DNA from: Anaerolineaceae bacterium 4572_78
GTDB lineage: Bacteria > Chloroflexota > Anaerolineae > 4572-78
Direction: 5' to 3'
NCBI GenBank assembly: GCA_002084875.1
Contig: NBMH01000081.1
Span: 1 to 33,138 of the forward strand
DNA: 33,138 nucleotides
This document shows positions 1 to 32,832 of this stretch, one piece after another. The position numbers were made by a program, and so were the translations under genes. The notes under the pieces are model-generated. The model had not been told where the DNA came from and searched no databases. It worked only from the letters and a program-made list of their open reading frames with translations. How positions within the stretch are numbered: position 1 is the first letter of the stretch; each line of letters opens with the position of its first letter.

Positions 1-769
1 GTGATGAGTGGAATCCCCGCCATGTCAGTAATGTTGACTCGACTTAATGTCAGTTGGAATATGTCGGGGACAATGGAAACATTGATGTTGTGCTGTTCAC
101 ATGCGGCTGTGATGTCCATAATGCGACGAGAATATTTCCATGGTAATGTGATGATAACTTGGTCTATATCTTCATGCATGAGAATATTGGATAAATTATC
201 AATGCTACCGAGTGCTTCAAAGCGACCGATATCGGTATGCCCTTTGCGAATATCATCGTCCATAAAACCGACGATTTCATAACCGAGTGTCGAATTTGCC
301 ACAACGGCTCGCATGACAGCTCGAGCCATTTCACCCGCTCCATAATCAGAATATCGGCGTAAATAAAAATCGCCCGCGAATAGAATGAAGATTGGTAGAC
401 AAAAACTATGACAATCATAATCATGATACCCGTGTTTGTACTCTTAAAAATAGTATACACTTCGTCAAATAATGACAAATCACGTCTTACTTTGTAAAGT
501 CCTTCGTAATAGTATACAATTAATAAAAGTAAAATAAGGATTATGATAAAAGGGGCAAATGCTGACAACCTGACATAGTTTGCAGGGTCTACTCGTCGCA
601 AGAGTTGTAAATCATAGCGAATGTAATAGGCTAAGGCAAATGCCACATTAATTAGCATGGCATCGGTGATTGCCCAAAACCAGCCATTTGTCCAAAGTGC
701 TTGTAAACGTGTTGTTGGTTTCATTTCAATTTCGGGAAATGTTGTTCCTAGTTGTTGTGTGTTAATCAT
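1..769 (-). pseudogene. Undecaprenyl-phosphate sugar phosphotransferase, N-terminal part, frame-disrupted and cut by the window edge
   Basis: Family role: transfers a sugar-1-phosphate to undecaprenyl phosphate to start exopolysaccharide repeat units at the inner membrane. The ATG at 767-769 opens a stretch with about four to five membrane segments (for example FIIILILLLLIVYYYEG), ending FYSRAIFIYA. Near 338-362 the frame changes. In the other frame the protein continues GAGEMARAVMR, GYEIVGFMDDD and IDQVIITLPWKYS, the nucleotide-binding-like middle domain of this family, open to base 1. At the joint the one-base shift comes with an apparent loss of roughly 30-40 residues: the last membrane helix and linker that normally precede GAGE. 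The C-terminal catalytic domain lies outside the window. Last gene of the minus-strand polysaccharide cluster, about 160 bp after the GT4 gene. No strong ribosome binding site is seen. Family call firm; whether it is truly broken or an assembly error is open. Confidence 0.8.
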
Positions 770-784
770 TTATATTTTAGGAAG

Positions 785-862
785 AAACCCCACCCCCGAC
801 CCATCCCCTACAAGGATAGGGGAGTAAGATTTCCCTTTCCCTATTAGGGCTGTTCAATGCTA
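785..862. repeat. C-rich hairpin repeat followed by an AGGGCTGTTCAATGCTA module
   Basis: Noncoding. It holds a C-rich stretch, a 7-bp stem TCCCCTA (804-810) / TAGGGGA (817-823), and the 17-mer AGGGCTGTTCAATGCTA (846-862). The same 17-mer bounds the element at 5857-5988 and, slightly altered, occurs at 22473-22489, each time next to a C-rich run. Together these form one dispersed repeat family. Confidence 0.75.
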
Positions 863-927
863 AAGAAGATATTGGATTTCGTACCTCAATCTCATCCATG
901 GGGTATTGTTTTTAACAGAATATGTAG

Positions 928-946
928 GGATTTATGGCATAAATCC
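928..946. repeat. 19-bp palindrome covering the stop of the GT4 gene
   Basis: GGATTTATGGCATAAATCC reads the same on both strands except at its centre base. The stop codon of the GT4 gene (932-934) lies inside it, and the last four residues (GFMP) are encoded by it. It therefore looks like an insertion that replaced the natural C-terminus. Confidence 0.7.
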
Positions 947-2026
947 TGAAAACTTTTTTGCTTGTTCAAAACCTTTCTGTTGCAAACGGGTCCGCAATGT
1001 TACATCGTAAAATGTAGATTTCATTGATTCTGCCAAAGCAACGGTATCATTAGGGTCATTGAGTATAGCAGCTTCCCCAGCCGCTTCGGGCATGGATGAA
1101 ATATTACTGGTGATAACTGGTGTTCCACATGCCATTGCTTCAATAATCGGCAACCCGAATCCCTCAAAAAATGATGGATAGATAAATAATGTAGCAGAAT
1201 TATGCCACAATGGCAATTCTGCTTGAGGTATATATCCTACAAAAATAATGGAGTCCGTCAAATTATGTGTCTCAACTAACTGAAATACATGCTGATAGTA
1301 CCATCCTTTGCCCCCACCAATTAGCAATTTTGGTGCATGCGTATCATGCTTTTTCCACATGGCATAAGCTTCTATCAACCCCAAGACATTTTTGCGAGGT
1401 TCAATCGTCCCTAAGTAGAAAATAAATGATTTTGGTAAACCGTTCTTTTGTTTAAATAATGCTATCTCGGCTGATGAATATCGCCTGAAAATCGCATCAA
1501 CTCCACAATAAATTGTATGAACTTTTGCGGGAGTGATGTCGTACAGTTGAATAATGTCTTGGCGTGTGCTTTCTGAGATGGCGATTATAGCTTTAGCCCG
1601 ACGAGCAGAGTATGCGGTAAAGGTGTCTAAATACCAACGCTTAAATGGTCGAAAAGCGTCAGGGTATCGTTTGAAAGAAAGGTCATAAATAGTAATGATA
1701 AACGGACATGGCACCATCACAGGAGCGATAAATGCAAGAGCATGTAGCAAATTGATTTTGTTATGGAGCAGGGCAAACGGTTGAAATGCCTGTTCCCAAA
1801 TGATGCGGGCGAGGGGATTCGCGGTCGGGAAAAGACTGTGGGATACGGTCAGATTTTTTGTGGAATGAACCCGCTTGTCACTAAGAAAAGCTGTGTAATG
1901 ATATTCGGGTTTCATATCAGCAAGATGCATCAGCAGGTTATGGATGTACCCGCTTATGCCCGCACTGCGATAATTTTTTTCAAGTGATAAGAGGTGTGCG
2001 TTCAAGCCGATGTGTGGAATTGCCAT
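932..2026 (-). CDS. Family 4 glycosyltransferase (GT-B fold), C-terminus altered by a repeat
   Basis: 364 residues. Family role: transfers a sugar from a nucleotide-sugar donor during polysaccharide synthesis at the cytoplasmic face. The C-terminal half shows the family landmarks: FYLGTIEPRKNV at about 200, LLIGGGKGW, GYIPQAELPLWHNSATLFIYPSFFEGFGLPIIEAMACGTPVITSN and the donor-site region SSMPEAAGEAA. The N-terminal half has the acceptor-side Rossmann fold with GISGYIHNL near the start and a YDLSFKRYP stretch. ATG at 2024-2026 begins eight bases after the stop of the beta-helix gene, so the two are probably co-transcribed. The expected last ten to twenty residues after EQAKKFS are replaced by GFMP from a palindromic repeat (928-946). 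The catalytic core is complete, so it may still function. Acceptor and sugar cannot be told. Confidence 0.9.
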   Translation of the reverse strand: MAIPHIGLNAHLLSLEKNYRSAGISGYIHNLLMHLADMKPEYHYTAFLSDKRVHSTKNLTVSHSLFPTANPLARIIWEQAFQPFALLHNKINLLHALAFIAPVMVPCPFIITIYDLSFKRYPDAFRPFKRWYLDTFTAYSARRAKAIIAISESTRQDIIQLYDITPAKVHTIYCGVDAIFRRYSSAEIALFKQKNGLPKSFIFYLGTIEPRKNVLGLIEAYAMWKKHDTHAPKLLIGGGKGWYYQHVFQLVETHNLTDSIIFVGYIPQAELPLWHNSATLFIYPSFFEGFGLPIIEAMACGTPVITSNISSMPEAAGEAAILNDPNDTVALAESMKSTFYDVTLRTRLQQKGFEQAKKFSGFMP

Positions 2027-2033
2027 GACGGTA

Positions 2034-4283
2034 TTATTTTAACACCAACGGTAAATATATCCAAAATTCTTCATCAACCTGTGGTGTAGTCGTTACTGTT
2101 GGTGTAGAATCTGACATGGAGGTCGCACTCGGCGTGACTGAAACCGTCGGGGTTGGTGGTGTAGTCGTCACTGTCGGTGTAGAATCTGGCATGGAGGTCG
2201 CACTCGGCGTGACCGAAACCACCGTCGGGGTTGGTGTTGTAGTCGTTATCGGCGGTGCATCCTGTCCATCATAAAGCAAAATTTCAGCACTGAACGGCTC
2301 CAATATAATTGAACCCGTAACTTGTTCTCCTGCTAAATCTTGGTAACGGATACCTTCTAAATCAATAGAGGTCTGTGTATCTGTGGGATTCATGAAAATG
2401 TGTTCGGAATGACGTTAAGATCCTTACTGGTATCCAAATATTCAGCTCGCAAACTGCCGCCATCCATGTCAGCTTGAGTGGTATCATGGAAAATCTTACT
2501 GGTCGGTTTCCAACCTGAAACATCAGTTTCAAAATAAGAGTTTTCAATTAAGTTTGTCCCCGTTTGTTGAACAGTGTATTCAGGAAACAGTACATGCACT
2601 GCTGTTGAATTAGTTTCCATGTTGGCAAACTCATCTTGGAAATGTGCCAAGCTATAACGAATACCATCCCGCTTAATTGTGATTTTACTGTACGGATTGC
2701 CGTAGACATTATTTTGAAATGTGCCGTGATTGGTATCATTCGTTAAATCCAATGTTAGTTGGTCAGGATGTAGGGCATAGACAATATTTCCTTCAACGAC
2801 ATTATTTTGTGAGGGTCCATTTTTATCCTGCACTACAATACCAGGGTCACTGTTATAAACGATATTATTTCGTACAGTTGTATTTTGAAAAGCATTGAGT
2901 CTAATTCCCATGTCTCGATTGTTGGCGATAACATTTGCCTCAATGACATTATCTACAAACTTGCTATCGGCTCCAATGCCCATGCCGTAGGCTGAATGAT
3001 GCATGCATGGCGTGCTGTTAGTGCTACCACATCCATTTGACTCATCAGTATTGCCCCATGAATTGAACAGGAAATTGCCCCGAATGACATTTCCATTTGA
3101 GCCAATGCTTATCGCCCCACCGTCATTCAACAAAAGCAAAACGTTACTCACTACATTGTTTTCAATGATATGATGACCATCATCTTTGAGATAGATGCCT
3201 GTGTGCGACACATTTTCAATAACATTCTGGCGTATGGTATATGCCTTGCCGAATACGCTAATGGCATGCCCGAGGTATACTCCATCATAACGTATCCCAT
3301 AAACAGGATACATGGCGGTATTTGTGATTTGATTTTTTTCGATGATTGCACTCTGCAAGTCAAAATCAGATTTTGCATTAAGACCGATACCTTTATTAAA
3401 ATTATAATCAAAGGTATTATTTTGAATCAGGACGTTTGCCCCATTCCAAACACTCACCCCTGTTTGGTTATGTTCAAAATGGCAATTGCGTATTTTTGGG
3501 ATAAAGATATACCTTTTTCGTAGCGGCATCATAGAACCATTCGCCAGGATGGTCAATTTCTTCCAGTTTGTTATCCAAGAAATAACCCCATTCAGGCAAC
3601 TGATTACTGAGCCGCTCTGCTTGGATTTTGCCTGTGCTTCCAGTAGAACTGGTAATTTTCGAAATGGTATATGTCCAACTGTAATTGCGAATACGTAACG
3701 TTGCCCCTTTCCAGTAATCATCGGGCTTAGCCAATGTTGCTAGAGCGGCATCCTTAAAGCCATTGGTGCCAGCCGTTTCGTCAACATCCAGCCAATTTTT
3801 TTGTGTAGGCGAGTCTACATTCGGATAACGGGCAAGCGTCATGAGTTCATTATTCACAAACAGATGATGAATCCCCTGTTCATCATCAATGGTCATGCTT
3901 GATATGTCTGCCTCGTAGACCTCATCAGATAGGGAGGCATGGCTGGTTTTTGTCCAATTTTCAATAGCGATGCTTCCCGCTAAAACAGGATTATCCCCAT
4001 CACCATAAGCCCCAATTGTCACCCCAACAGGAGTTTTATATAATCGTAATTCTCCTCGAAACACATCACCACGTTGAAATAAAAGGATGTCATTATCACT
4101 CAATCTGAATGTATTGACATGCTCAATGGTTTGCCATGCTGTGTCGGGAGATAAGCCATCGTTATCATCACTACCATCATTGCTCACATAATAGGTGTTA
4201 TCATCTTGAGTAGCAATGGCAGGAGATATCGTTACCAAAAAAAATACTATGAGAATTGTGTAATGAAAATACTTTTTTATCAT
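2034..4283 (-). pseudogene. Secreted right-handed beta-helix protein with carbohydrate-binding-like domain, broken by two frame changes
   Basis: Three overlapping reading frames make one protein. Piece 1 (4283 to about 3500) has a signal peptide (YTILIVFFLVTISPAIA) and the start typical of DUF1565-type beta-helix proteins (YYVSNDGSDDNDGLSPDTAW). Piece 2 (about 3500 to 2398) carries parallel-helix coils such as NVLIQNNTFDYN, HIIENNVVSN and TTVRNNIVYNSDPG, then the first half of a CBM4/9-like domain (NSYFETDVSGW). Piece 3 (about 2398 to 2034) reads IFMNPTDTQTSIDLEG, then a Thr/Pro/Ser linker and the end FWIYLPLVLK. Expected sequence is missing at both joints: the segment between KKVYLYP and IRNCHFEHN, and the rest of the carbohydrate-binding domain. 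Likely role: extracellular polysaccharide binding or lyase/epimerase-like activity; substrate unknown. It lies in the polysaccharide cluster, before the GT4 gene. Confidence 0.8.
2086..2238 (-). repeat. Two tandem copies (75 and 78 bp) coding the Thr/Pro-rich linker
   Basis: Copies start at 2086 and 2161; a third partial copy starts at 2239. They encode SVTPSATSMPDSTPTVTTTP-like blocks in the linker between the folded part and the terminal YLPLVLK of the beta-helix protein. The second copy has one extra codon, so the frame is kept. Confidence 0.85.
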
Positions 4284-4357
4284 AATACTATTTTACCATG
4301 TTTATCGAAACCGAGGCAAATATACTCAAAACATGCCTAAAGTAATATTTTCATGAA

Positions 4358-4376
4358 GATATTGCTAGAGAGCATC
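4358..4376. repeat. Short repeat GATATTGCTAGAG(AG)CATC at the end of the GT39 gene
   Basis: The same word without the extra AG occurs at 32187-32203 in a noncoding region. The stop codon of the GT39 gene (4365-4367) lies within it, which may explain that protein's unusual end (SHFDAL). Confidence 0.5.
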
Positions 4377-5856: not shown

Positions 5857-5988
5857 TAGGGCTGTTTAATGCTAAAACAAAAAACATGGCTTGGGATATT
5901 TATGGAGCAAAAAAGCTTGCTTTTTCATGTCAAAGCAAGCTTTGACGCTCCAATTTATCTTGTCAAAAAATAGCATTGAACAGCCCTA
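5857..5988. mobile_element. MITE-like 132-bp element with 18-bp terminal inverted repeats
   Basis: The left end TAGGGCTGTTTAATGCTA (5857-5874) and the right end (5971-5988, its reverse complement with one mismatch) frame a noncoding core. The core contains a long hairpin (5903-5952). There is no open reading frame for a transposase, so any movement would need help in trans. The right end supplies the TAG stop codon of the upstream GT39-like gene. Related end sequences occur at 846-862 and 22473-22489. Confidence 0.65.
5903..5952. repeat. Nested hairpin with TGGAGC...GCTCCA ends
   Basis: TGGAGC (5903-5908) pairs with GCTCCA (5947-5952). Inside, AAGCTTGCTTT pairs with AAAGCAAGCTT, and 5929-5946 (GTCAAAGCAAGCTTTGAC) is itself an 8-bp-stem palindrome. 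It belongs to the same repeat family as 18922-18970, 22555-22576 and 27855-27879. Confidence 0.8.
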
Positions 5989-8148
5989 TGGGGTGGAGTT
6001 TGTTTCCCTTGGGATGATTATGACAATTCCTTCATCAACCACTGTGGCTGACCCAGCATGCCTAATTCTAAGTCGTGTTCCCGTTTCAAAACGATATAAA
6101 CCGATGAAAAGATGATATGACTCATCCATGACTCCCATGCCAACATGAGGGGTAAAATTGACAGTGTAGCTATCTTTGATAGTCTCACTTGCCTCCCACC
6201 ATGTTGTCGGATAATTTCCATTCAGAGGAAGGCGGTCAAAACCAGCAACCTGTTTTGTCTCATGCCACAATTGAACAAAAACAGTATAATTTTCTGTAGG
6301 GTGTCCTGTCGGCTGCCAATATAATACCAATTGACATGACGTAAATGGCACGGTACAATCAGTATTAAAACCAGCTAGTTGAATATTATCATCGAACTGA
6401 ACGTGAAGCGGTATGTAGTTTTCATCTGACCATGCTTTGGGAATGATTTTCACCATGCCGATGATGCCGTTGGTTTTCTGACCAAATTCATCTAGGATGG
6501 GAGGTTGCTGTCCACATCGGTTTTCAAATTTATACATGCCAACCTCAATTTTAGCAATCATGGGAGCAGTTGTGCCGCCATCAATTTGAACAAAATGCTG
6601 GTCGGCGATTACTTCGTTGGCATGCCAAAACCGAGTTGGTCTTAAGCCTTGAGCAGGATATGAGTTGTGTTGCCCCACGGATTGCATGGAATGGTCAAGC
6701 AGGCTAACATAAATACTGTAATTGGTTTCAATCTGTTTCAGAGGTTGCCAATAAAGAGTTATAGGTATATGTTCACCAGGCTGATATGTTCCCGATTGAA
6801 CATGACCGCCAAGTAAACGTATAGTGTTCATAAGGTAACGGTTGGGTTGTTGGTCAGCTAAAGGAATTTGGGCATGGGTGATTATCGGAGGTGGTGTATA
6901 GCTGGGCATGAGATAATAAACCATTAGTAGGATGCATACCGATGGAAATAGTATCAAAATAAATTTGGAGAACCATGTCCAAAGTGATTTAGGAATGAGA
7001 CTAAGCCAGCCTACAAAGAGTAGAATTGATAAACTGGCAATCATGGGAAAGTAATGTCGTCCTTGTAGCCCGCCGAAGATTCATGTACTACGTGTCAAAG
7101 AAAACCATATCAAACCGAGTAAGCCAATTCGGTCAAATAATCTTATTGCTTGATAATAACTCTCATGCACGCCGATGCTCAACCAGCCAAAGGTTGCCCA
7201 GTAAGAAACTTCTGCTTGAATAAATGGTAGTAGCCAATCACCAAGTGTTTCAAGTTTTGGTTCGACATTGTAGTGATATATCCACAAAGTAGTCAGAAGT
7301 GGATCGCCATGCAATTGCCAATTTCGGATATACCACCACCCACTGACCATGCCCGTCGTGAAAGCTAATAATATTCCCCCTTGCAACCAAAATGAAAGTG
7401 ACCGTTCTCGCCATGCAACTACGGTAATAGCTATGGCACCAATCGGCAAAAGAGCCAATCCTGTTACTTTGGTAAGACTGGCACATCCTATCACCACTCC
7501 CAGCACGACAATTCGTTTGTAAGAAGGGTAGCCTTGCATAATTTGAATGGCAAGCAATAACCCAATTGTGGAAAAAGCCGTAACAGCATTATCGGTATTG
7601 ATAACAGAACTAATATAGACAAACTGAGGATTAAATGCCACGATAGCTGTTGCCCCAAGTGCCAACCAAGTTTCATTTTTGAAAACATGACATGAAATAA
7701 GATAAGTGGCAATAATTGTGCTGGTAGCAAATCCAATTGAAACGAAACGAAAAAGGGTAACTGCTAAAGCAGTCCCATGCAATAAACGAGTGTTAGGTGG
7801 ATGAACAAATGTGTTTTTATTACCAAGTACATGCACTCTACTGACACTAGCATGCGGATTGCGTTCTAAATAGCTATCCAAATCTGTTATTGCCACCCAC
7901 CCCGCAAACAATGAACCAATCGCATAGTATAACGGCGGTTGCAATTTTTGTTCGGGAGTTTCATCGGGGGAATAGATAGGCAAATGACCATCTTTGGCTA
8001 AGATGGTCATATAAATAAAATGTTCATTTTCATCAGGTCCCTCAAAGATTGGGTTGTTAATACTCAACCATAAAGTTATACTAACGAAAATAACGATAGT
8101 AAAAGAAAGGGGATGAAAAATATTAAAAGTTGATTTTATCAGCTGCAA
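5986..8148 (-). pseudogene. GT39-like multi-pass membrane glycosyltransferase with C-terminal beta-sandwich part, one frame break
   Basis: Piece 1 (8148 to about 7090) is the membrane core: a hydrophobic start, then NNPIFEGPDENEHFIYM and QKLQPPLYYAIGSLFAGW, the acidic outer loop and PPLYY motif of GT39 relatives, and some eight helices up to GLLGLIWFSLTRS. Piece 2 (about 7075 to 5986) begins in another frame with FGGLQGRHYFPMIASLS, the late motif of the same family, then two helices. Two beta-sandwich-like repeats follow: YQPGEHIPITLYWQPL...YSIYVSLLD, and CQLVLYWQPTGHPTENYTVFVQLW. Roughly 50 or more residues expected between LTR and GGLQGR are absent at 7075-7095. The stop codon is supplied by the inverted repeat of the neighbouring 132-bp element. 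Probable role: sugar or glycan transfer from a lipid carrier in polysaccharide assembly. First gene of the left cluster. Confidence 0.8.
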
Positions 8149-8649: not shown

Positions 8650-11600
8650 CTATCGATACATCCATACCCTCAGCATAGAAAATAAACGCTCATTATCTAT
8701 TGGCTTAGATAAATAATCATTTGCCCCTGCTTGAATACATTTCTCACGGTCGCCTTTCATCGCCTTTGCAGTTAGAGCAATGATGGGAATATACTTAAAG
8801 CGAGTCTGTTGGCGAATCTGTTTAATCGTTTCGTAGCCATCCATCACAGGCATCATGACATCCATCAAAATAATATCTATATCAGACTCTTGCTCAAGTT
8901 GTTTCAATGCATGCTTGCCATTTCCAGCAAGCGTTATTTCCATACCCTTGTCCGATAATAACTTTGATAACGCAAAAGCATTACGCATGTCATCATCAAC
9001 AATTAGTATCTTTTTGCCCGCTAGAGCCTTTTCCTTGTCATACAGTTGTTTGATAGTTGCTTGTTTTTCCTGCGGCATATCCGCTACCACGCGATGCAAA
9101 AATAAGGCTGTTTCATCCAGCAATCGTTCAGGCGATTTAACTCCCTTTATAATTATGCTATCGGTGTATTGTCTCAATAGATTACTTTCATCTTGGCTTA
9201 ATTCCTTGCCAGTATACACAATAATTGGACATTTATTGATAGTGTTATCTTGTCTAATGACATTTAATACATCAAATCCTGTTATGTCAGATAGATTTAA
9301 ATCCAAAATCATACAGTCAAACGCCTCTTTTCGTAACCAGTCTAAAGCCGTCTTACCCATGTCAGTTTCGATAATTTTGATATCATTATCATGCAACAAT
9401 TGTCGAATACTTTGCCGTAATACCATGTCGTCTTCAACTAGCAAAATTCGTTTGATGCCATGATGAACAAACTGCTCAATGCGTTGGAACACATTTTCTA
9501 AATCATCACTACTAACTGGTTTGGTCAGATAGCCAACTGCTCCTTGCTGGTAAGCACCCATTGTTTCATCTTCGACTGACATGATGTGAATAGGAATATG
9601 ACGCGTATCGGTATTTGCTTTCAAGACATTTAGAATATCCCAACCGCTCATGTTGGGCAGTTTTAAGTCAAGCAAGATAGCGGACGGGATATGGTGCAGT
9701 GCCATATCCAATCCTTGACGACCATCACGGGAAACGATACATCGAAATCCCTTTTTCTTTGCCATGTTCTGTACTATTTTGGCAAATTTTTTATCATCTT
9801 CGATAATCAATAGCAGTGGTTCAGCACCATCTTCAATATCATCAAGCATGTCAATATAAATATCATCAATCGTTTCCTCAACAGAATCTCGCAATGAATT
9901 GCCGACTCCTGACTCCTGACTCCCAACTTCTGGCTCCTGCCTTTCTATTTCTAATTTCTCATCCTCAATCGGCAAATACAACGTGAATGTACTACCTCGA
10001 CCGTAAACACTTTCTAATGTAATCTCGCCACCGAGTTGAGTTGCCAATTCACGCGAGATAGAAAGCCCCAAGCCTGTACCACCATATTTGCGGCTAGTGC
10101 TACCATCTGCTTGTTGGAAAGCTTCAAAGACAATCTTTTGTTGTTCGGGAGTCATGCCTATACCTGTATCTTTGACCTGAATAGCTACTGCCCGACTAGG
10201 AGACAATTTACTGTTAGATAAATTCACTGTAAGACTTGGCAGGAACATGCTAAGAGTAACACTTCCCTTTTCAGTGAACTTAAAGGCATTGGACAGGAGA
10301 TTTTTGATGATTTGTCCTGTCCGTTTTCCATCGGTTTGAATGGTGACAGGTAAATCGTTGGCAAGGTTAATCTCAAATTTAAACTCTTTTTCTTCAGCCA
10401 CATGGGAAAATTGAAACTGCATAATGTCTGCTAATTCGCTCAACATGATAGATTCAAAGTTAAATTCCATTCGCCCCGCCTCGATTTTAGACAGGTCGAG
10501 AATCTCATTGATAAGATGTAGCAAGTCATTACCACCGCTATAGATAATCTGAGCCGATTCAACTTGTTCATCTGTCAAATTACCTTCGTTATTATCAGCC
10601 AATATCTTCGACAAAATTAGCAGGCTATTCAAAGGCGTACGCAGTTCATGCGACATGTTTGCTAAAAATTCGGATTTATATTTGCTGGTAAGGGTTAATT
10701 CCTCTGCTTTTCGTTCTAACTCGACTTGAGCCGCTTTTAATTCATTATTTTGCTTATCCAAGTCAAACTGCTTTTGTTGCAAGTCATTGCGACTCCGTTC
10801 TAGTTTATCAGCTTGGTCTTCTAATTGAACATTTGTTTTCTCCAGTTCAACTTGCTTTTCCTTCAAGCGAACCTCAGAAAATTGCAAAGCCTTAGTTTGT
10901 GTTTCCAGTTCTTCATTCGAAGATTGTAATTCTTCCTGTTGCGATTTGAGTTCTTCATTTGCTATTTTTAATGATTCTTGCTGGGTCTGCAATATTTGAG
11001 ATTGTTGCTGTGTCTTTTCCAATAATTCTTGCATGCGTTCGCGTGACAGAGCTGTATGGAAAGCAATGGCGATATTTTCCATGATACTATCAATGAAATT
11101 CATGTCTTTTTTGCCAAACGAATACAGCGAACCAATTTCAATGACACCGATAACATTGCCTTCATACATGAAAGGTGCGACCAAAACATTCGTAGGGATA
11201 CGTTCACCAAGCAAAGAACTAACAGGCATATAGCCTTCGGGTAAATCGGTAACGACAAACCTTTTCTTTTCATAAGCGGCTTGCCCAATTAAGCCCTCGC
11301 CAATCTTAAAATTAGTTCGAATGCCCTTGCGAACATCATAAGCATAACTTGCCGTCAGATGGAAAATATCATCGTCATGGTGCAGTGCTAAAACTCCTAC
11401 TTGAGCATTCAGGTATTCCGCTAAACATTGAATCACATTTTCGGCAAGAGTGGTAATTTCCTGCTGACCACGTATGCGGTCGTTTAAGGTTGATTGTCCA
11501 GTAGATTGCCACATCTGCTCTTTATTTTCGGTCATGACTAGTTGTAAATCAATCAGAAGTTTATTGAACGTTTCCGCCAATATTTGCAATTCTATAACTC

Positions 11601-15841: not shown

Positions 15842-15870
15842 AAACTCCTAACGCCCAACTCCCAACTCAA
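15842..15870. repeat. GGGAGTT-type heptamer run at the end of the multi-GAF gene
   Basis: The minus strand reads as imperfect GGGAGTTGGGCGTTAGGAGTT. It supplies the last codons and stop of the multi-GAF gene (ELGVGR) and lies in the 40-bp gap before the polyprenyl synthetase. Related to 9903-9940 and 30905-30990. Confidence 0.7.
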
Positions 15871-18800
15871 CCACCACATGCTCGGCTGAAAATCGTTGCC
15901 CTAATTCCGAAGCGGCGGTTTTGACCAATTCCTCCAAACTGGTAGCAGCTCGCATTTTCTCCGTGATTTCTCGGATAGCTTTCTCACGCCTAGCCAAACG
16001 CTCACTTTCACGAGTAGCAATTTGTTGAGCAATAGAAGACCGCCGACTAGCAACGACAGCGGCTACAGGGTCTAAAAGTTGACGTAAAATAAATCGCTCA
16101 TCAGAACTAAAAATATGTGGTATACTCCATGCAAATGTAATAGAACCTTGCCAGCGTTGCCCGCTTCGCAATGGCATACAAGCAAAGGATTTAATGTTAG
16201 ATTGTTCAGAAATTTTTGCTGTAATGGCATCAATGTTTGTTTCGTTTGATAAATCCTCAATAAATGTTACCATATTAGATTGAGTAATCCATTTTTTTAG
16301 GGAAGGCACATCATCAAGATGAAAAAACTGATTAAGTAATTCGTCATCATCTGTCGTCAACTTCTAAATAGCCCAGCATGATACGTTCGGGCAAGTCTGT
16401 GTCAAATACAGGTGCCAACGTAGCCAAGACTTCTTCTGCTAGGGTTATTTGAGATAGAACGGCTTGAGTTTGGGTCAGTTTTTCAAGTTGAACAGCTCGT
16501 TCTTGAGTTTGATTAAATAACCTTCGACTTTCCACTGTGGTGGCTAACATTGAGGCAATCTGTTGAAGCAGGCTTTTATCTCGAGTGATATAGGCGTTTA
16601 AGTTGCGATGAAATACATTAAGTGTACCTATTGCCTGCCCACGTACAGTTAATGGAGCCATCATCGCTGAATTGAAGCCCTGTTCAACCAAAATGCAGGC
16701 ATCTTTTTCTGGGTTATCACGCATGTCAGATAATAACACAATTCTATTTTGTTCTAGGGCTTTACCCATCATAGTGTTAGAAATCTGCCATGCTTTCTGT
16801 TCCTTATGTAAATCAGATGTTTCACTAGATTGACGAATTATCAAGTTATTTTTATCTTCGCTCAATAACACTACTGAAGCAGAATCAGCCTCAATAATCC
16901 GTTTTGTTTCTACAACACCAATATTGAAAATCATATCAACACTTGTTTCTAGGGCTAATTTTGTACTCAATTCATTTAACAAAGCTAATCGTTTTGCTTG
17001 GGCGGCTGTCTCATCAAGTGCTGCTTGGTTTTGTTCAAACAAATTGACATTGGCAATAGCAATCGCTAACTGACTGGTAATAGTTAATAAAGTACGCAAC
17101 TCATCTTCATTAAAATGACCAATAATATCATGCTGAACATCCAATACACCACTAATCGTTTGCCCGATGTAAATCGGTAGAATAACTTGTGATAATGTAG
17201 CTGGTAAAAGCGGGTTTGTACCATAACGGTCGTCATTAACCACATCATTGATTACAATTGGTTCTAATGAATAAGCGGCATGAGTGATAACACTTACTTC
17301 GTCATCGACAGGAATAACAAGACCATTCTTCTTAAACTTTTCACTGGCATGCCCAGCGGCTTCACCAACAACAAACGCCTGTTGGGTTTCATCCAATAGA
17401 TAAACCGCCGTATGATAATATTCAAATGTCTTTTGAATCATGCCAACCACTTGAGGTAGTAGTTGTTCAAAATCAAGAATCGAAGATATTTCTTGACTAA
17501 TCCGAGCGGCGGCTCGAAGTTGTTTAGTTCGTTTTTCGGCTTGATTAAAAAGACGATTATTATCAACCGCTACAGCTATCTCACCCATAACTGCTATATA
17601 AGGTTGCACTTCACTTTCAATAAATTCATGATAATGTTGACTTTCGAGGACTAATATGCCAACTTGAAGCGACCCCACCCACAAGGGAAAGGCAGCCACA
17701 CTTTTGATTTTCAAGGCGGTTAAAAGACCTCTAATATCACCAGGAATTAACTCATAAGTTTCGGTATCGGCGATAAATGCTGGTTGAGTCATTATCCATT
17801 CATCTGAAACAGGAAAAATAGGTTGACGGTATTGGATGCCTACAAGCGTTGACAGAGGACCATCATCGGTATGCCAACTTGCCAAAATGGCGGCAGCAAC
17901 AATGCTACCTGACGCATCCCGTTCAAAACCCATTAAGATTATGCGGTCTACATCAGAAATACGTAATTCTCTAGCTAACACATCAACAATCTCTTGCAGA
18001 TTATTTGCTAATGCAATATGATAACTGGTGCGGTACAGAGTTTCAGTATTTTCTAAAACACGTTTTTCAACTAGGTGAGCCCGATGACTGCCAATAACTG
18101 CCCCAATTGATTTAGTCAGTTGTTGCAATACAAACACTTCTTCATCAACCAAATGGCGAGGTTTAGGCCAGTCAAACGTAAGTAATCCTTGCCAGCGTCC
18201 CTCACTCCACAACGGTAAAATTGCCAGTGCTTCAAAGTTCATCTTTTTGCCCAATTCGAAGAATGCCTCTAGTGAGCACGGGTCATCATGAATGTTTTGG
18301 AAAAACACAATTTGATTTGGCTCCTCAAGCCACAAATCTATTATAGGGAATGTTTGATAAGATGATTCTATATTATCTCCACTTTGGACAATCCCTTGTT
18401 CCCACACAGCCATGCGTTGCAGTTCAATTGGGGTGCCATCATTATCAGTTCTGATATAAAACAAAATAATTCGCATGTCAATATCAAATGTCAGTGCCAT
18501 GGAAATAATGGCTAACATTTCAGTTTCGTCATGCACATCAGAAAGTGCTGATTGTATTGCCAATAGTTTTTCGAGATAGATAGCCCGCTCTTGAATTAGT
18601 TGGAATCTCAACTGGCTATCAATAACAACTGCACTTTGCGTAGCTAAAAAGTCATAAAATCGCTGTTCCCGTTCGGTGAATAAATGTGGATTTTGCCAGC
18701 CAATAAGAGTAACACCAACCCAACGACTCCCTAAAACTAATGGCAGTAATACCATGGCTTTTGTGCCTATATCTATCAAGCCAAGGTCTGACGCTCTAGT

Positions 18801-19868
18801 AAAACGTGTATCTTGGTTGATGTCTAAAATAAAAATTGGACTGTCGTGATGCTCCAACAATACATCAATCAAAGGCAAATCGGCAAGTTTGATTCGTTGA
18901 CCAACTTCGAGGGGAAGTGTCGGAGCGTCAATGCTTGCTTTGACATGTGGAGCGTCAACGCTTACTTTATCAGAAGTTGTCATGATAGCTGAAACTTTAC
19001 ATTTTTTAATGGGTTCAGCATCAATATTCATACCAAAGGTAAAAATGATGGCACAACTTGGTGATTGAGCCAGTGGATGAATTGATGAGATTGAGGAAGC
19101 AATAATATGCAAGCCTTTATCTAATGATGTGGCAGTATTTAGTTCAAAGGCTATATTGTAAAATGTTTCCGTTTCAGTCAAAGCTAATTGGGTTTGTTCA
19201 TACTGATAAGCATGTTGAAGAGCAATCGCCACTTGAGAAGCTAAGGCAGTTTGAATACGAATCATGTCCTCTGTGAAATAACCGACATGATTAGATTGAA
19301 TATCCAACACACCCAATAAGGCATCCCCAACGGTCATGGGAATGATTGCTTCAGAAAGAGTATCAGGTAGCTGTTTGACAGGCAAGTATTCAGAAGATTG
19401 TCTGACATCTTGAACTGCAACGGCTTGACATGTTCGGGCTGCCTTAGCAACTAAGGATTGTTCTTGTGAAAGTGAAATTTCCCAGTCTTGTGCCACCATT
19501 TGTTTTCCAACTTCGCCTGACCCTACCCGCAAGGTTAGCATTTCTCTCTCCTCATCAAACACATAAATATCAACATGATAAAATCCAAAATTGCTTTTGG
19601 TCAGGTCAACAACTTTCTGTAATAACTCATCAGGTTGCATAATTGTCGAAATGACCTTACTAGCTTGCATGACTGTTGTCAATTCAGTGGCACGTTGAAT
19701 AAATAATTCTTCTGACTGTTTTTGCCACGTTTGTGCATGGGCAAATTGCTGGCAGATTTCTTTGGCAAAAGGAACTTCAGAATCCAGCTCTAATGTATAA
19801 TTATCATTTCCCTCTGCCAACTGCCTCATGGCTTTTAAGATTTCTCGAAAGGTATCTTCAAATTTCAT
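15848..19868 (-). pseudogene. Multi-GAF-domain signalling protein (seven GAF domains), frame break in the last domain
   Basis: About 1340 residues in two frames. Approximate GAF domains on the first piece: 60-215, 235-420, 440-605, 615-770, 780-950 and 960-1120, with typical endings such as GVLDIQSNHVGYFTEDMIRIQTALASQVAIAL. The seventh begins LTQTQAVLSQITLAEEV, breaks near 16343-16360 after RIMLGYLEVDD, and resumes in another frame with DDELLNQFFHLDDVP. Compared with the third GAF of the same protein, about 22-25 residues are missing at the joint. No kinase, cyclase or receiver domain is present, so it would act as a sensor or scaffold. ATG 19866-19868 is preferred; a GTG at 19881-19883 is possible, and the only AGGAG lies 14 bases before the ATG. 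In-frame repeats occupy 18922-18970. Ligands unknown. Confidence 0.85.
18922..18970. repeat. Two in-frame 27-bp copies of the GGAGCGTCAA repeat inside the multi-GAF gene
   Basis: Copy 1 is 18922-18948 (GGAGCGTCAATGCTTGCTTT, then GACATGT) and copy 2 is 18949 to about 18970. Read on the minus strand they add SVDAPHVKASIDAPT to the second GAF domain. Closely related copies are noncoding at 5903-5952 and 22555-22576, and coding at 27855-27879. Confidence 0.88.
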
Positions 19869-19948
19869 CGTTGATGGCAACACTCCTAACTTCTATGGTT
19901 ATGTTCCAAATTGGCACAGTGTCAAAAAATGCCCTAATCTGAATATCT

Positions 19949-20126: not shown

Positions 20127-20978
20127 TCAAGCCTTTTTAAAAAGCATAAATTGTTTATTTTTATTATGGGCTAAAGGGTAATTACTAATCAATAATTCTT
20201 TACCTTTTGCAGCAAATGTTTTCTTATAATTATTCATGCCATATTGTAATTCCCAACTTAATTGATAAAAATCTGAATACAAATCTTGAATATATAATGA
20301 GTTATCATAAGTCATTAGCCAGTGGTGTGAACATGATTTGAGATACTTATGCAGACGCTTATGATTAAATCCAACATGTAAATTTCCTTTTTTGCCATAT
20401 AAGCGTGATTTTGTAGCCGAATAGTAGGGTGGGTCTAAAAAAATAAAAATATCTTGACCATTACATATCAAAAGTTCTTTATAATCATTTGATGTAAATA
20501 GCATATTCTTGACAATCTTATGAGCCATTTTCAGCCGTTCAATTGAAGATAAGGTAAATCTTTTTTGAAATGATTGCTCGGAATAACCACCACTATCAAC
20601 CACCCCTGAAAACGTAATTCGATTCAAAACAAAAAAATCAACAGCTCGTTGTAGTATTGATAAATCATCATGACGGCGTGCCAGTATCGTTTGAAAGAGT
20701 TGTCTGCCATTTGTCCATGTCTTTTTGATATGTAAAATCTCATTTACCAACTGACCAACATCACTTTTAACCATAGTCCAAAAACAATACAACTCATAAT
20801 TCAAATCATTGGCTATATAGTGAGCATGTGATTTCTTTTGCTGACAAAAGAAAGTCATGGATCCACCACCAAAAAATGGTTCACGAAATTCCTGATAGTT
20901 TGGAATAAATTGATATAAATATTTAACGGCACGAGACTTTCCACCAGGATACCGTAGTGGACTTTTAATCTTTGGCAT
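20127..20978 (-). CDS. DNA adenine methyltransferase (D12/Dam class), modification part of a type II system
   Basis: 283 residues from ATG 20976-20978 (a TTG two codons earlier is possible). It methylates the N6 of adenine in a specific DNA site using S-adenosylmethionine. Motif X/I region SPLRYPGGKSRAVKYL at the start and EPFFGGGSMTFF follow the D12 pattern. FFVLNRITFSGVVDSGGYS is the usual middle block, and motif IV IFLDPPYYS (DPPY) holds the catalytic residues. The target-recognition region lies roughly at 60-150; the site it reads cannot be deduced. The gene overlaps the end of the upstream nuclease gene by 14 bases, so both are translated together, nuclease first. The restriction-modification pair is low in G+C and sits beside tRNA-Leu, which fits acquisition as a unit. 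Confidence 0.93.
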   Translation of the reverse strand: MPKIKSPLRYPGGKSRAVKYLYQFIPNYQEFREPFFGGGSMTFFCQQKKSHAHYIANDLNYELYCFWTMVKSDVGQLVNEILHIKKTWTNGRQLFQTILARRHDDLSILQRAVDFFVLNRITFSGVVDSGGYSEQSFQKRFTLSSIERLKMAHKIVKNMLFTSNDYKELLICNGQDIFIFLDPPYYSATKSRLYGKKGNLHVGFNHKRLHKYLKSCSHHWLMTYDNSLYIQDLYSDFYQLSWELQYGMNNYKKTFAAKGKELLISNYPLAHNKNKQFMLFKKA

Positions 20979-22101
20979 ATTCAATAATCACCTGAAAATT
21001 ATTTTTATTGGCTTCTTGAAAAAGTTGATCAATCAATTTTTGATGACTTTTCTTGAAACTATGTGAATCAATAAATCTTTTTATATCATATGCATTAGCC
21101 TTTGAAGTAATTCTATACTTTATTTTTTGAGAAGTTAATCGTAAAACGGGTAAAAAATCTAAGGCACCATAACTTGATTTTAAAAACAATTGGTCAATGC
21201 TGGTATACAATACCATCTTTATTAATCCATCTTTGATATCATTTTTAGAAGGTAATATTGATTTTTTGGTATGCTTACTTTCAACTAAAAAATATGTATT
21301 ATTTTTGATAATAACTTCATCAATTGTAAAATAATACGTACCACCTAAATAATTTTTTATGTCAATTGTTGCTTTTATACCATGTCCTAAAGACTCTTTC
21401 GGTTGTATAGTAACAACTTCTCTATTTTGTGCTTGCTTTGCTTTTTCTCTTGAAAATCGTAGAAAACTATCACGGTGTTCGCTAATCTTTTCTCTAAAAT
21501 CATATAACCTTTGTTCACTATGAAAGATAACACCTGTTTTGGTTGAAATTTCTTGAAATGCTTGTATGGATTTCGATAATATCATATCAAGATGTGAAAT
21601 CTCTAATTGATGTAAATTCCAATGCAATGCTGATGAGTGATAACTTAGTAACAGATTCATCTGTTCTTTTACAAAATCATCATAGAATTTTTGATGTGTT
21701 ACTTTATTTTGTTTTGTGTTTAATCGCATGTTTTTTTCTGCATCATGATAATATGCAATAATTACATAAATATTAAGTGAACTCATCAAAGATATCGTAT
21801 CCCATTGTAAATAATCTCTATCACCGTCTTTACCTTCATCTTTCACCAATGGAATAATTGTAACTAATTTGACACTTGACAAATTCAAGGTGTTATAAAT
21901 TCGGCTATAAGGATATGAACGAGTACGTTTAGGTGAAACCCATTTACTAACTCCCCATAAAAAGTTCCCGTCCGTAACTTGACATGATGATGCCCAATTA
22001 TTCACGTTTTCATAAAACATGACTTGTGGTAACTTTTCTATTAAATAAGGTTTGTAAGTAATGTTTGTAATTGTGCCATGTAATCTAATTGAATGATTCA
22101 T
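20965..22101 (-). CDS. Probable type II restriction endonuclease (PD-(D/E)xK fold)
   Basis: 378 residues; I do not recognise the family by sequence. The case rests on position and a nuclease core. It overlaps a D12 adenine methyltransferase gene, and near residues 258-276 it has YYFTIDEVIIKNNTYFLVESKHTKK. That is an Asp followed about a dozen residues later by E-S-K on a predicted beta strand, the D...ExK arrangement of metal-dependent restriction nucleases. The N-terminal 200 residues (for example FLWGVSKWVSPKRTRSYPYSRIYNTL) may read the DNA site. It would cut unmodified foreign DNA at the partner's site. ATG 22099-22101; the nearest AAGGA is 12 bases upstream, weak spacing that could keep nuclease levels low. 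An alternative reading is another nuclease-fold protein tied to the methyltransferase. Confidence 0.75.
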   Translation of the reverse strand: MNHSIRLHGTITNITYKPYLIEKLPQVMFYENVNNWASSCQVTDGNFLWGVSKWVSPKRTRSYPYSRIYNTLNLSSVKLVTIIPLVKDEGKDGDRDYLQWDTISLMSSLNIYVIIAYYHDAEKNMRLNTKQNKVTHQKFYDDFVKEQMNLLLSYHSSALHWNLHQLEISHLDMILSKSIQAFQEISTKTGVIFHSEQRLYDFREKISEHRDSFLRFSREKAKQAQNREVVTIQPKESLGHGIKATIDIKNYLGGTYYFTIDEVIIKNNTYFLVESKHTKKSILPSKNDIKDGLIKMVLYTSIDQLFLKSSYGALDFLPVLRLTSQKIKYRITSKANAYDIKRFIDSHSFKKSHQKLIDQLFQEANKNNFQVIIEYAKD

Positions 22102-22334: not shown

Positions 22335-22345
22335 GAGTAGATACT

Positions 22346-22426
22346 GGGGAAGTGGTGGAATGGCAGACACGCATGATTTAGGATTATGTGCCTTACGGCG
22401 TGAGGGTTCGACTCCCTCCTTCCCCA
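22346..22426 (+). tRNA. tRNA-Leu (anticodon TAG)
   Basis: 81 bases without encoded CCA. Acceptor stem GGGGAAG (22346-22352) pairs with CTTCCCC (22419-22425), discriminator A at 22426. The D arm carries the GGAATGGCAGAC pattern of leucine tRNAs. The anticodon loop TTTAGGA gives TAG, between CATGA and TTATG. There is a long class II variable arm (TGCCTTACGGCGT region), and the T arm is GAGGGTTCGACTCCCTC. It reads CUN leucine codons. It lies between the restriction-modification pair, on the other strand, and a block of repeats. I see no second copy of its 3' end in the window that would mark an integration site. Confidence 0.96.
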
Positions 22427-22433
22427 TTCAGTT

Positions 22434-22489: not shown

Positions 22490-22576
22490 GTAGGGGCGTA
22501 CGGCCGTACGCCCCTACAACTACGGCCGTACGCCCCTACCATTAGTACTGTTCAAACCTTGCTTTGACGCTCCAAC
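22490..22576. repeat. Composite repeat: perfect 28-bp palindrome, half copy, and GGAGCGTCAA module
   Basis: 22490-22517 is a perfect palindrome (GTAGGGGCGTACGG and its reverse complement). A 19-base part copy follows at 22521-22539. Then GTACTGTTCAAACC and a GGAGCGTCAAAGCAAGG module (22555-22576, minus strand) end three bases from the stop of the TPR gene. The whole is flanked at the left by GGGGCTGTTCAATGCTA (22473-22489), so modules from several repeat families are stacked here. Confidence 0.85.
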
Positions 22577-22578
22577 TT

Positions 22579-24002
22579 CTACCTTCGGATATTAAAAACA
22601 TAATTACGGTAAACTCCTGATATATCCCAATCAATCGCATGTTTAAATTCCTGTTCAGCTTCTACATCTCGTCGTTGGGCTTTTAAGACTCGTCCTAAAT
22701 GATAGCGGATTGACACATCGTAAGGGGCAAGTTCAAGGGCTTTTCGTAATTCAATTTCAGCTCCAACATAATCACCTGTTTGAAATTTTGCCCAGCCAAG
22801 CAGGTTGTATGCCTGTGGATTATCCCGTTCCATTTCAAGCAAACGCTCCGCCGCAGGTAAGCCATGTTCTAAAACATGATAACTTCTTTCGACATAAAAC
22901 ATTGTCAATTGTTGTTGAGAAGTGACCGATTCAGGTTCTAGCTTAACAATTGCTTGATACCAGGCTTCGGCAGAAATGTAATTGCCTGTTTCAGCTAAGG
23001 TAAAGGCAGCTTCCATAGCAATCCCAAGGTTATTTGGGTCGTAGTCCAACGCCTCTAAGAATCGGTCAATAGCTAAATCAGGCAAACCTTGTCTACGAAA
23101 ATAAATCCCTTCAAAATATGGAGTCAAAGCTATTGCAGGGTCTAGTTTACGAGCATGATTAAAACTTTCCATAGCAGGTAAACCTAAATTTACCTTTGTA
23201 TATCCAAAAAAAGCCCATGCATCTGCATCCGTTGAGTTATATGTTGTTGCTATGTTAAGTGCATTGTCAGCCAGTTCCCATTCTCCAAGTTGAATCAAGG
23301 CAATGCCGATTATTTTCGCTACTTCTGCTTGATGGGTTTCGGTAGTAAATGGGGCAATCGTTTCTTTTAAGTAATTTGCTTGGGGGGAATCTAAATTATT
23401 AAGATACGTTTGACCTTTGGACAAGTCAGCAGGTAATGTCAAAGCGGATAGATACCACAAAATTTGCCGACCAGATTCGGAGTGCAAAAATTTTAGCGTT
23501 TGCATTCCTGATGATTCTAGTGGGGTTAAAAAAGTAGCTTCTGCTCGGCTATATTTTCGTCGAGCCATGTATGCTCGTCCCAAGCCAAGCCAAGCTTCCA
23601 TAGACTCACTGTCATGCTCAATCACATTATGCCACCAATTTATTGATTCTGTAGGCTTTCCCTGTTGCAATAATGACTCTGCTAAGCCTAACTTTGCAGC
23701 TTGATTATTGCTATCAATATTTAAAATTTCATTAAACCTCCGTTGAGCCAATTCCCAACGATATTGAACTAGATAAATTTCTGCTAATTTATGACGCGGT
23801 TCTATTGCTTTGGGGTCATGCTTAATCACTTCTTCCAATATTAAAATGGCATCGGTATAAGATTTTTCAGCAATTAAATTTTCTGCTTCGGTTAGATGTG
23901 ATGTAATGTCATACAACGAAGATGGCGTAGATTGGCAACTAATCAAAAAGATGAAACTTAATACAACTATGTAGATTGCATGTTGCTTATCTGTTATTTT
24001 CA
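22579..24002 (-). CDS. TPR-repeat lipoprotein
   Basis: About 474 residues from ATG 24000-24002 (or 24003-24005). Both follow AAAGGGA; the second ATG has the better spacing. A lipoprotein signal is clear: charged start, hydrophobic run IYIVVLSFIFL and lipobox LISC, so Cys is lipidated and the protein faces outward on the membrane. The rest is about ten tetratricopeptide repeats from HLTEAENLIAEKSYTDAILILEEVIKHDPK to ALELAPYDVSIRYHLGRVLKAQRRDVEAEQEFKHAI, which act as protein-binding scaffolds. Its start overlaps the end of the DUF2079 gene by about 16 bases, so the two are coupled and may work together at the membrane. The stop is followed at once by a repeat module. Partner unknown. Confidence 0.88.
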
Positions 24003-25950
24003 TCATTCCCTTTAACGGCATACACCATGCATGCCATCCGCTTAAAATCTTGCAGATAGACAAGATTATCCGCTAATATAAGGCATGGTTTTTTCTCCTG
24101 CTCATGCAAAATAAGTATCCTGTTTGTCCTTTGACATACAACATGCAAACGTGAATCTACATCCCATGGATCCGCCTCATAAGAAATACCAACTGCATAA
24201 CTAAATACATCAGTTCTATCAGCAGTCCACCATGACAAAGTATTAAATCGTACTTTAATTATCTGCCCTGCTTGCCATAAATGCGTCGGCCACCAAACGA
24301 GGACAGGTTGTTGAAAAACTGTGGCTCCTTTTACATGTCCCATGTCATCTAACAAATAAAGATGAATAAAATAATCATCATTTGGCTGTTGAAGCACATG
24401 AAAATAAAGACTGACTTCTGCTTCCTCTTTTCGATTCACATGGACATCCATACCAACTAACGATAATATATCACCAAACTTGGCAGGGACAAATTTCGAT
24501 TGTGCCTGTTGATTATCGGCAAATAAGAAATCCTGAAAACCATCTTGAGTCGGTTTACGTGTTGCTTCTCGTTTTAAAAGCAGGTAACCATCTCGGCTGA
24601 CCATCAAGCCGAAATTCGATTCATAAATCATCGTGCTGATAAGATTTGTTTGAGCATTATCGGCGTTTATAAATTTGGGATGTGATATGTCAAAAAAAAT
24701 ATAATCAATATCTGACGAAAAATCACCTGTCCAAATTGAAACATGCTCACGTTGACTAATGTGTGGGACGAGTTCGGCTTGAGCCATGACACTTGCCGAT
24801 TGCGGAATGGTAGCGGCAATCTCATCTCCGATGGCATGATGTTGTGTTACATTGGGCAAATGAAATGGTTTGCTGAGAGGAGAATAACCTCGAAAGTAGT
24901 GATAGGTGAATGACGAACATAAAAGGATTATGGTTAGCATGATAGAAATTTGGTTTTTATCACCCCACTTCTTGTTTCTCCCATGTGCATAAAAATGGTT
25001 TAGGTGGAGTTTTTCCAAACGCCTCATGCCATCCACCACAGCCAGCATGATAAACGGTAACATCGGGGCAGCATAATGCCATGTTTCCAATTCTTGTTGA
25101 AGCGGATTGTTGCTCAATAAACTAATGGCAAGTGCGGGAGCGGTCAAAATAAAAATGGGCAACCCTGCTTTTCCAAAGGTGTATTTCCTAGTGTCGGGAA
25201 ATATTTGATGTATGCTGATTCTTCGCCGCCAATTCGATAACTTGGCAGGACAATCTCAAAGGCGATGTATGCCCAAGCTAATCCCATCACAGCAAGTAAT
25301 ATGCCCATCGAGTAGCGTTTTTGCCACAAGGCGACGTATAGCCCCACCATAAATATAAGTAGTGAAATATCCTCCTTGCATGACATTGCTAGAATGAAAC
25401 TGATTAAGGCGTAAACCCCACCCCAACCCCTCCCCTGAAAAGGAGAGTGGCAAGTGGTGTGGTCTGCTTCCAAAAAATACCATCCCCACAAAATGAAAAA
25501 TGGGGCAAGAGCCACAGCATGAAAGTCAAATAAATTGACGGATTCTGTAGCAGGCAAAAGGAGATATGCTAACACAATTGCTACAGCAGACCATTCTGAT
25601 TGTAATTTACGACGGGCAATTAAAAAAAGAGGGATTGCCGCTAAACCAAGTGCCACTGTTTGTAGCCATAACAATGTGATGGGGTTAGGTGCTATCCAAT
25701 AGAGAGGAACTAGCAGAAATAATATCGGTTCTACATGCAGTCCCATGCGATTGAGACTAATTTTGGGCAAGGTGGTTAAAGCCAAACCTCGCCCATGTGC
25801 CGCGTTCCACATAGCCTGGTCATAGTTCCCCAAATCTAAGGCACTCGTTTCGTAGGCAAAGTGCTGACGTGTGGCAAGGATGCCAAAGGTGATGATATAA
25901 ATTAGTATGAGAATAGTAACAACAAGACTGCGATAATTTAGGGATTTCAA
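23987..25950 (-). pseudogene. DUF2079 multi-pass membrane protein, one frame break and a repeat-coded insertion
   Basis: DUF2079 proteins are polytopic, GT39-like membrane proteins of unknown reaction, frequent in Chloroflexota. Piece 1 (25950 to about 25175) starts at a TTG (MKSLNYRSLVVTILILIYI) and has the family motif LDLGNYDQAMWNAAHGRGL, then VNLFDFHAVALAPFFILWGWYF and CKEDISLLIF. Piece 2 (about 25170 to 23987), in another frame, continues GLPIFILTAPALAISLLSNNPLQQELETWHYAAPMLPFI and ends in a beta-sandwich part like that of the left GT39 gene. At 25160-25175 about 60-70 expected residues after LGNTPLE are missing along with the frame change. Between YFLEAD and YALISF a run TTCHSPFQGRGWGGV is coded by a C-rich dispersed repeat. 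It lies 19 bp after the PP2C gene and overlaps the TPR gene. Confidence 0.82.
25413..25460. repeat. C-rich dispersed repeat in frame inside the DUF2079 gene
   Basis: The plus strand reads ACCCCACCCCAACCCCTCCC, then CTGAAAAGGAGAGTGG. It encodes CHSPFQGRGWGGV on the minus strand, a peptide recognisable from similar repeats in other bacteria. Noncoding relatives lie at 785-825, 5826-5863 and 22434-22478. Confidence 0.82.
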
Positions 25951-27444: not shown

Positions 27445-27471
27445 TATGATTTTTCTTTCTTTTGTCACATA

Positions 27472-27500: not shown

Positions 27501-27540
27501 TAATGTTCATTTTACATCACTTCTGCTATCTACGCAAATC

Positions 27541-27572: not shown

Positions 27573-27591
27573 ACACTCCGTTCATCCTGAT

Positions 27592-27620
27592 TTGACAAAT
27601 TAGGCACTACCAAGTATCAT
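27592..27620 (+). promoter_or_regulatory. Strong promoter of the methyltransferase gene, predicting a nearly leaderless message
   Basis: Perfect -35 TTGACA (27592-27597), spacer 17, -10 TATCAT (27615-27620). The predicted start near 27627 falls at the first ATG (27629-27631). Confidence 0.75.
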
Positions 27621-27628
27621 TTTTGATA

Positions 27629-28501: not shown

Positions 28502-28523
28502 CAAACATGACGTATCTTATTTA

Positions 28524-28551
28524 TTGCCTCTTTTTTCTTTTAGAGTATAAT
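28524..28551 (+). promoter_or_regulatory. Promoter of the GTPase-carbamate kinase operon
   Basis: -35 TTGCCT (28524-28529), spacer 16, perfect -10 TATAAT (28546-28551). The leader of about 70 bases holds a small TGGTG/CACCA hairpin near 28573-28590 and the ribosome binding site TGGAGGAAG (28618-28626). Confidence 0.6.
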
Positions 28552-28629
28552 TCAGTTTTCAGAATCAGGTAGTGGTGATATACCACCACCAAAATTTAAC
28601 CAATTATTTAACATCCAATGGAGGAAGTT

Positions 28630-29949: not shown

Positions 29950-29958
29950 GGATTAGAT

Positions 29959-30906: not shown

Positions 30907-30995
30907 GGTAGGGAGTAGGGATTGGGAGTTAGGAGTGTCAAAATGAAATTTTGACTATGCAGAATGCAATTCTGCGACTCCGACTCTCAATCTCA
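30905..30995. repeat. Repeat block: GGGAGTT heptamers flanking two tight hairpins
   Basis: Heptamer-like GGGAGTAGGGATTGGGAGTT at 30911-30930 leads into GTCAAAATGAAATTTTGAC (30937-30955, 8-bp stem) and GCAGAATGCAATTCTGC (30959-30975, 7-bp stem). GACTCC/GACTCT runs in opposite orientation follow. It lies between carbamate kinase and the DprA-like gene. The hairpins could weaken read-through, but no T-run follows. Confidence 0.75.
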
Positions 30996-31009
30996 CAAAA
31001 GGAAATTAC

Positions 31010-32053: not shown

Positions 32054-32094
32054 TCATCAGGTAACAGGCAAGATGCATGTGGCAAACACATAAG

Positions 32095-32126
32095 CTATTT
32101 TCAAGAGCAATTGCTCTCGAAAATAG
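32095..32126. terminator. 32-bp near-palindrome after the DprA-like gene, possible terminator
   Basis: CTATTTTCAAGAGCAA and its reverse complement with one mismatch form a stem directly 40 bases after the stop. No T-run follows, so it may equally be another modular palindromic repeat. Confidence 0.45.
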
Positions 32127-32218
32127 GCATCATTATGCGTCCAATCATCTTGAGAATGGGGAGATATACTAAAAACGGGCACAAAGGATATTGCTAGAGC
32201 ATCCAAGGTTCTTTGGTT

Positions 32219-32252
32219 AGACCTGACAGGTTTTTAGAAACCTGTCAGGTCT
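32219..32252. repeat. Perfect 15-bp-stem hairpin (AGACCTGACAGGTTT)
   Basis: Left arm 32219-32233, loop TTAG, right arm 32238-32252. The ACCTGACAGGTTT core is a palindromic word seen in many unrelated bacteria. Between converging genes it could act as a two-way terminator, with T-runs on both strands inside the arms. Confidence 0.8.
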
Positions 32253-32335
32253 TGGTACAAAATGTTACTTTATGACCTTCACAAGTATACTTCATTCCAC
32301 ATTTTCTTTACTTTGCTAATCATTAACACAGCATA

Positions 32336-32495
32336 AATCAAATTCTTCTTGTGTGCATCGGAGGCATGGCGAAAAGAATTTTGCCATGTCTCTTTTAAAT
32401 CTACAGGTGTCTGGCAATCAAATTTTGCTTATGTGCATCGGAGGCATGGCGAAAAGAATTTTGCCATGTCTCTTTTAAATCTACAGGTGTCTGGC
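32336..32495. repeat. Two tandem 80-bp repeats, each with a CATGGC...GCCATG hairpin
   Basis: Copy 1 is 32336-32415 and copy 2 is 32416-32495. They differ mainly in the first 20 bases. Each contains CATGGCGAAAAGAATTTTGC, then CATG, a 6-bp stem with a further AAAA/TTTT pairing. The second copy ends three bases before the stop of the small right-edge gene, so that gene's end may derive from the repeat. Confidence 0.9.
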
Positions 32496-32498
32496 AAT

Positions 32499-32832
32499 CT
32501 AAGTTATCACAAAAATGGATACGATTACAAGCACGTTTTTCAAGTCTGAGTCATTTTCAATAGTGTCAGCTAATGCTTGATACATGTTATCCAGATTCAA
32601 TGGGTTACCTTGAAATGTGGGGCGTGGCTCAAACTCCTTAAAAAGGTCTTGTAATTCAGGATGGATAAAATAAGCTTCTTTATGAATAAAACCTGTGACC
32701 ATTATGTGATGTTTTAGGATATTCTCACGATTAATTTCTCCTTTATCGTACATATCCTTAAAAATTGCTTCGGTATGGGAAAGTAATGATACTTTCAATA
32801 TGGGTTTTTAGCTGTTTTTTATTCAATCCCAT
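32499..32832 (-). pseudogene. Small unknown protein coupled to the ATPase gene, frame-shifted
   Basis: I do not recognise the family. The likely start is ATG 32830-32832, overlapping the ATPase stop by 14 bases. It gives MGLNKKQLKTHIESIIT and then runs into a stop after 24 codons. A second frame resumes at about 32790 with SHTEAIFKDMYDKGEINRENILKHHIMVTGFIHKEAYFIHPELQDLFKEFEPRP and runs to 32499. A single base change, or a small deletion near 32780-32795, would join them into a protein of about 110 residues. The alternative is a separate gene from TTG 32796-32798. The last residues (VLVIVSIFVIT) look unlike the rest and abut the 80-bp repeats. The tight coupling suggests it works with the ATPase. 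Confidence 0.6.

Follow-up and report, generated by a model that had tools for sequence, protein, structure and literature searches.

Chen et al. (2020, PMC7111523) described local assembly errors at scaffold joins of metagenome-assembled genomes, which they suspect to be especially frequent with IDBA-UD; the errors include joins made despite overlap, which leave duplicate sequence, in IDBA-UD and in CLC assemblies. The stretch of DNA analyzed here (the window) is a complete contig (C198; 33,138 bases) of an environmental draft genome, G000, which comprises 4,104,200 bases in 252 contigs and is, by marker genes, 81.61% complete and 2.76% contaminated. Its gene content suggests that it belongs to the class Anaerolineae (Chloroflexota). 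Several genes of the window are broken, with residues missing at the break. Judging from sequence comparison, these breaks are very probably an assembly artefact, in which ordered contig pieces were concatenated without gap letters and without a check for overlap; the broken genes in the window are no biological feature. Reading frames in the window were taken from a list of open reading frames together with the sequence, and the genomes used for comparison include none from the same genus as G000. The first 104 bases of the window (1..104) match the start of another contig of the same genome (C48) exactly, in the opposite orientation. End overlaps of this kind are typical leftovers of word-based assemblers, which produce graph-style contig ends.

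All of the breaks in the window affect minus-strand genes. Near position 350 (338..345), a gene for an undecaprenyl-phosphate sugar transferase (CoA_binding_3) changes frame between pieces at 164-769 and 3-329; the median loss is 91 nt, as measured from 24 tblastn pairs with intact homologues from 20-odd genomes of the order, all of them concordant. A GH141-like/beta-helix gene is broken twice by frame changes, near 3495 (3474..3500, between pieces 3474-4283 and 2390-3721), just after the point where the GH141_M domain terminates, and near 2400 (2387..2396, between pieces 2390-3721 and 2034-2393). Contig C132 of a relative, G017, carries this gene as a single open frame of 1,399 amino acids across both joins, and spacing in this one relative gives losses of roughly 135 nt at the former join and roughly 290 nt at the latter. 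In the multi-GAF protein gene (16346..16356, near 16350), pieces 16347-19883 and 15848-16360 lie in different frames, with about 53-59 nt missing according to two homologues, in G023 and G020. The frame likewise changes in a gene for a DUF2079 membrane protein at 25165..25171, between pieces 25144-25950 and 23987-25162, where 22 tblastn pairs give a median loss of 109 nt; the match to PF09852 halts at position 212 and restarts at 264, and exactly 38 residues are missing by 18 of 21 relatives.

The join near 7085 (7081..7100) differs in kind. There, a gene for a PMT-type membrane glycosyltransferase is interrupted by an in-frame TGA (7081-7083), and the next piece resumes in phase at 7044, as the phases of the open frames indicate (pieces 7081-8148 and 5986-7044). 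No fewer than about 30 residues have been lost, since intact homologues, including a paralogue in G000 itself (contig C54), have 30 to 73 residues between the two pieces. An in-frame TGA might call to mind recoding or splicing-like biology that unites the frames in the cell, such as programmed frameshifting, bypassing, or read-through of the stop at 7085. However, recoding cannot restore residues that are missing from the DNA, intact relatives carry a single uninterrupted frame wherever the loss was measured, and the joins fall at unrelated points of unrelated genes, so that we regard the chance of such an explanation as vanishingly small.

Toward the end of the window, a gene that starts inside the end of an AAA_21 ATPase gene (32819-33136) changes frame near 32790 (32780..32800), as judged from its reading frames; a search of 150 genomes of the class found no full-length relative of this gene. 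Nearby on the same strand lies an 80-nt duplication (copies at 32352-32419 and 32432-32499), in which 68 bases are exact and the remainder has diverged, and on whose upstream side the frame changes near 32540. This is likely a further frame change, one that, like the duplication, is absent from the initial annotation, and the duplication itself is a probable unmerged contig overlap between strain variants. A glycosyltransferase group 1 gene stops abruptly at 932-950 (FSGFMP), where relatives usually run on, and its end is possibly another join.

Of the seven frame changes that the initial annotation had listed, those near 350, 2400, 3495, 16350, 25165, and 32790 stand, while that at 7085 proved to be an in-frame stop with the same frame on both sides and residues missing. 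Alignment to full-length relatives, proposed there as a check, yielded the gaps of 91, 109, and about 53-59 nt given above and bore out the absence of blocks of residues at the measured joins; the range of about 20 to 70 residues offered for them was too low near 2400, by the spacing in G017. The initial annotation was also right that mere base-call errors would not make whole blocks disappear. At 350, 7085, 16350, and 25165 and in the GH141-like gene, the same protein family flanks a block that is missing by comparison with intact relatives.

Base composition is uniform along the window except for a low-GC island at 20-22 kb (20127-22101; 29 to 32% versus 40%), in which a gene for a D12-class N6-adenine DNA methyltransferase (PF02086) overlaps a 378-amino-acid open frame with no Pfam match. 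The island resembles a restriction-modification pair gained by horizontal transfer, and a tRNA-Leu gene adjoins it on the plus strand (22345-22427). Mobile DNA commonly inserts at tRNA genes. Across the sample of G000 (loci L093 to L292), palindromes are avoided to an extreme degree, with GATC at 0.08, GCGC at 0.10, GGCC at 0.10, and CCGG at 0.14 of expectation; the avoidance is weaker in relatives of the family and, for GATC, absent in G012. This suggests strong past restriction pressure in G000. Short dispersed elements of the GAGCGTCAAA type occur singly between genes in the window (5880-5960 and 22540-22600) and in tandem within a histidine kinase gene elsewhere in G000 (L101:13930-14080).

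Using tblastn, we aligned proteins from relatives and from other loci to 936 kb (0.94 Mb) of G000, and counted frame changes that had at least 40% identity on both sides of the break. Three relatives received the same treatment as a control, which was modest in size (57 kb aligned) and consisted itself of draft genomes. In G000, 125 kb of aligned coding DNA contained 12 frame changes with missing blocks, versus 0 in the 57 kb of controls (P = 0.011). Among them, one corresponds to the sole run of Ns and another falls in a repeat region; the conclusion is unaffected by either. Losses of 12 or more residues that kept the frame were similarly confined to G000 (21 versus 0; P = 0.0004), while in-frame insertions showed no excess (9 versus 4). 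The lost lengths are mostly 20 to about 155 nt, at times more, and the broken genes outside the window include rpiA and genes for a threonine synthase-like protein, an M16-type peptidase-like protein, and a GGDEF protein. Breaks therefore run throughout G000 and are commoner there than in the other assemblies. They fall on both strands, and the restriction to minus-strand genes remarked upon in the window is not significant, plus-strand genes making up just ~4.4 kb of it. A codon-usage scan also gave G000 a larger number of long-overlap frame changes than its relatives, but its hits included normal overlapping genes, a YidC/Jag pair for example, and the scan was replaced by the homology comparison.

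The missing blocks and frame changes are truly in the sequence, and a population with broken genes is conceivable in principle. Genuine small deletions, in the course of genome decay in, for example, a symbiotic or dying lineage, might thus be considered, as the initial annotation had done. Natural decay, however, is dominated by breaks without missing bases, that is, indels of 1 to 2 nt, and among the robust sites of the G000 sample no frame change of this simple kind was found; the mix of indels, nonsense changes, and deletions to be expected of decay did not appear. The protein flanking the breaks is still well conserved, with identities of up to 73%, the coding fraction of G000 is an ordinary 0.82, and the losses come together with exact, fresh duplications.

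Decay is also expected to spare essential genes. In G000, ileS (contig C81) is divided into two frames at about 4740 with about 59 nt missing, upstream of which identity to relatives is 67 to 73%, and leuS (C238) breaks near 9600, with a loss of about 47 nt; both genes are single frames in relatives, and a search of G000 for a second copy of either found none. Isoleucyl- and leucyl-tRNA synthetases are indispensable to any cell. Because a cell needs both, the sequences as assembled cannot be those of a living organism, unless intact copies sit in the unassembled part of the genome. The breaks thus ignore gene function, striking essential genes present in single copy. The genes rpoC, dnaE, and valS are intact in G000, as would be expected of random joins, although this is not a proof. 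Given these results, we consider genome decay very improbable, and it is less probable still that the deletions are real and that a living population tolerates missing blocks in ileS, leuS, and many other genes, for instance by importing the products or as a moribund lineage.

Isolated exact two-copy tandem duplications of at least 30 nt are a second sign, in excess in G000, with 9 in 0.94 Mb, whereas 2.40 Mb from other genomes yielded 1 (P = 8 × 10^-5). They measure 30 to 68 nt, few of the clear ones (35 to 68 nt) have a length divisible by three, and some break open frames (e.g., L280:14903). The excess is limited to this class, as direct repeats in general showed none in G000. Such duplications are what stays when overlapping contig ends are written in series, unmerged. 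We also considered library artefacts from template switching or PCR, by which reads, instead of scaffolds, would have been joined at short repeats. In several cases the match to the protein persists in both frames for 10 to 17 nt around the join, which is compatible with joining at short repeats, but simulated blunt joins show comparable apparent overlaps of the two frames (median, -1 nt, with a lower quartile of -19 nt, where the median observed is about -10 nt), such that no microhomology is shown, and the two best-measured joins in the window give -1 and +5. Moreover, exact unmerged duplications are not predicted by such artefacts, and we consider them very improbable.

Concatenation of contig pieces during assembly is supported since the breaks are genome-wide, essential single-copy genes are struck, simple indels are lacking, and exact duplications are present. 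Of the two explanations in the initial annotation, contigs joined across gaps with loss of sequence is thus the one upheld, the breaks being genome-wide, ileS and leuS being struck, and duplications lying alongside, while genome decay through numerous small deletions did not hold up against broken essential single-copy genes and the lack of simple indels at robust sites. Under the proposed mechanism, pieces of a short-read metagenome assembly, correct in order and presumably ordered by read pairs, would have been written end to end regardless of their true distance, with no gap Ns and with overlaps unchecked. Where a true gap separated two pieces, that many bases would be lost; one protein family would then continue across the join, short of some residues and, in two cases out of three, shifted to a new frame. 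If two pieces truly overlapped by less than the word length of the assembler, the overlap would be written twice, as an isolated exact tandem duplication. One process accounts for both signs, losses and duplications. We infer that the exact step was scaffolding by read pairs, in which Ns were either stripped out or not put in at all. The only run of Ns in the 936 kb, 44 N at L093:7538, lies at a join like the others, and its survival counts against Ns having been stripped everywhere.

The finding matters as a quality-control warning only. Joins free of gap letters make a draft genome seem rich in pseudogenes, reduce its completeness score, and feed false truncated proteins to databases. Block losses that are blind to gene function, taken together with exact tandem duplications that stand alone and span a few tens of bases, provide a flag for such genomes that requires no reads.

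The breaks in G000 share with natural pseudogenes of decaying bacterial genomes the combination of frame changes and missing segments in recognizable genes; unlike those pseudogenes, they strike essential single-copy genes, lack indels of 1 to 2 nt, and carry the signature of joins. They more closely recall the cases described by Chen et al. (2020, PMC7111523), in which wrong or missing sequence at contig joins, duplicates from overlap, and incorrect protein-coding genes were likewise found. In those cases Ns mark the joins, whereas in G000 nearly all joins are without Ns and therefore look like real deletions and duplications.
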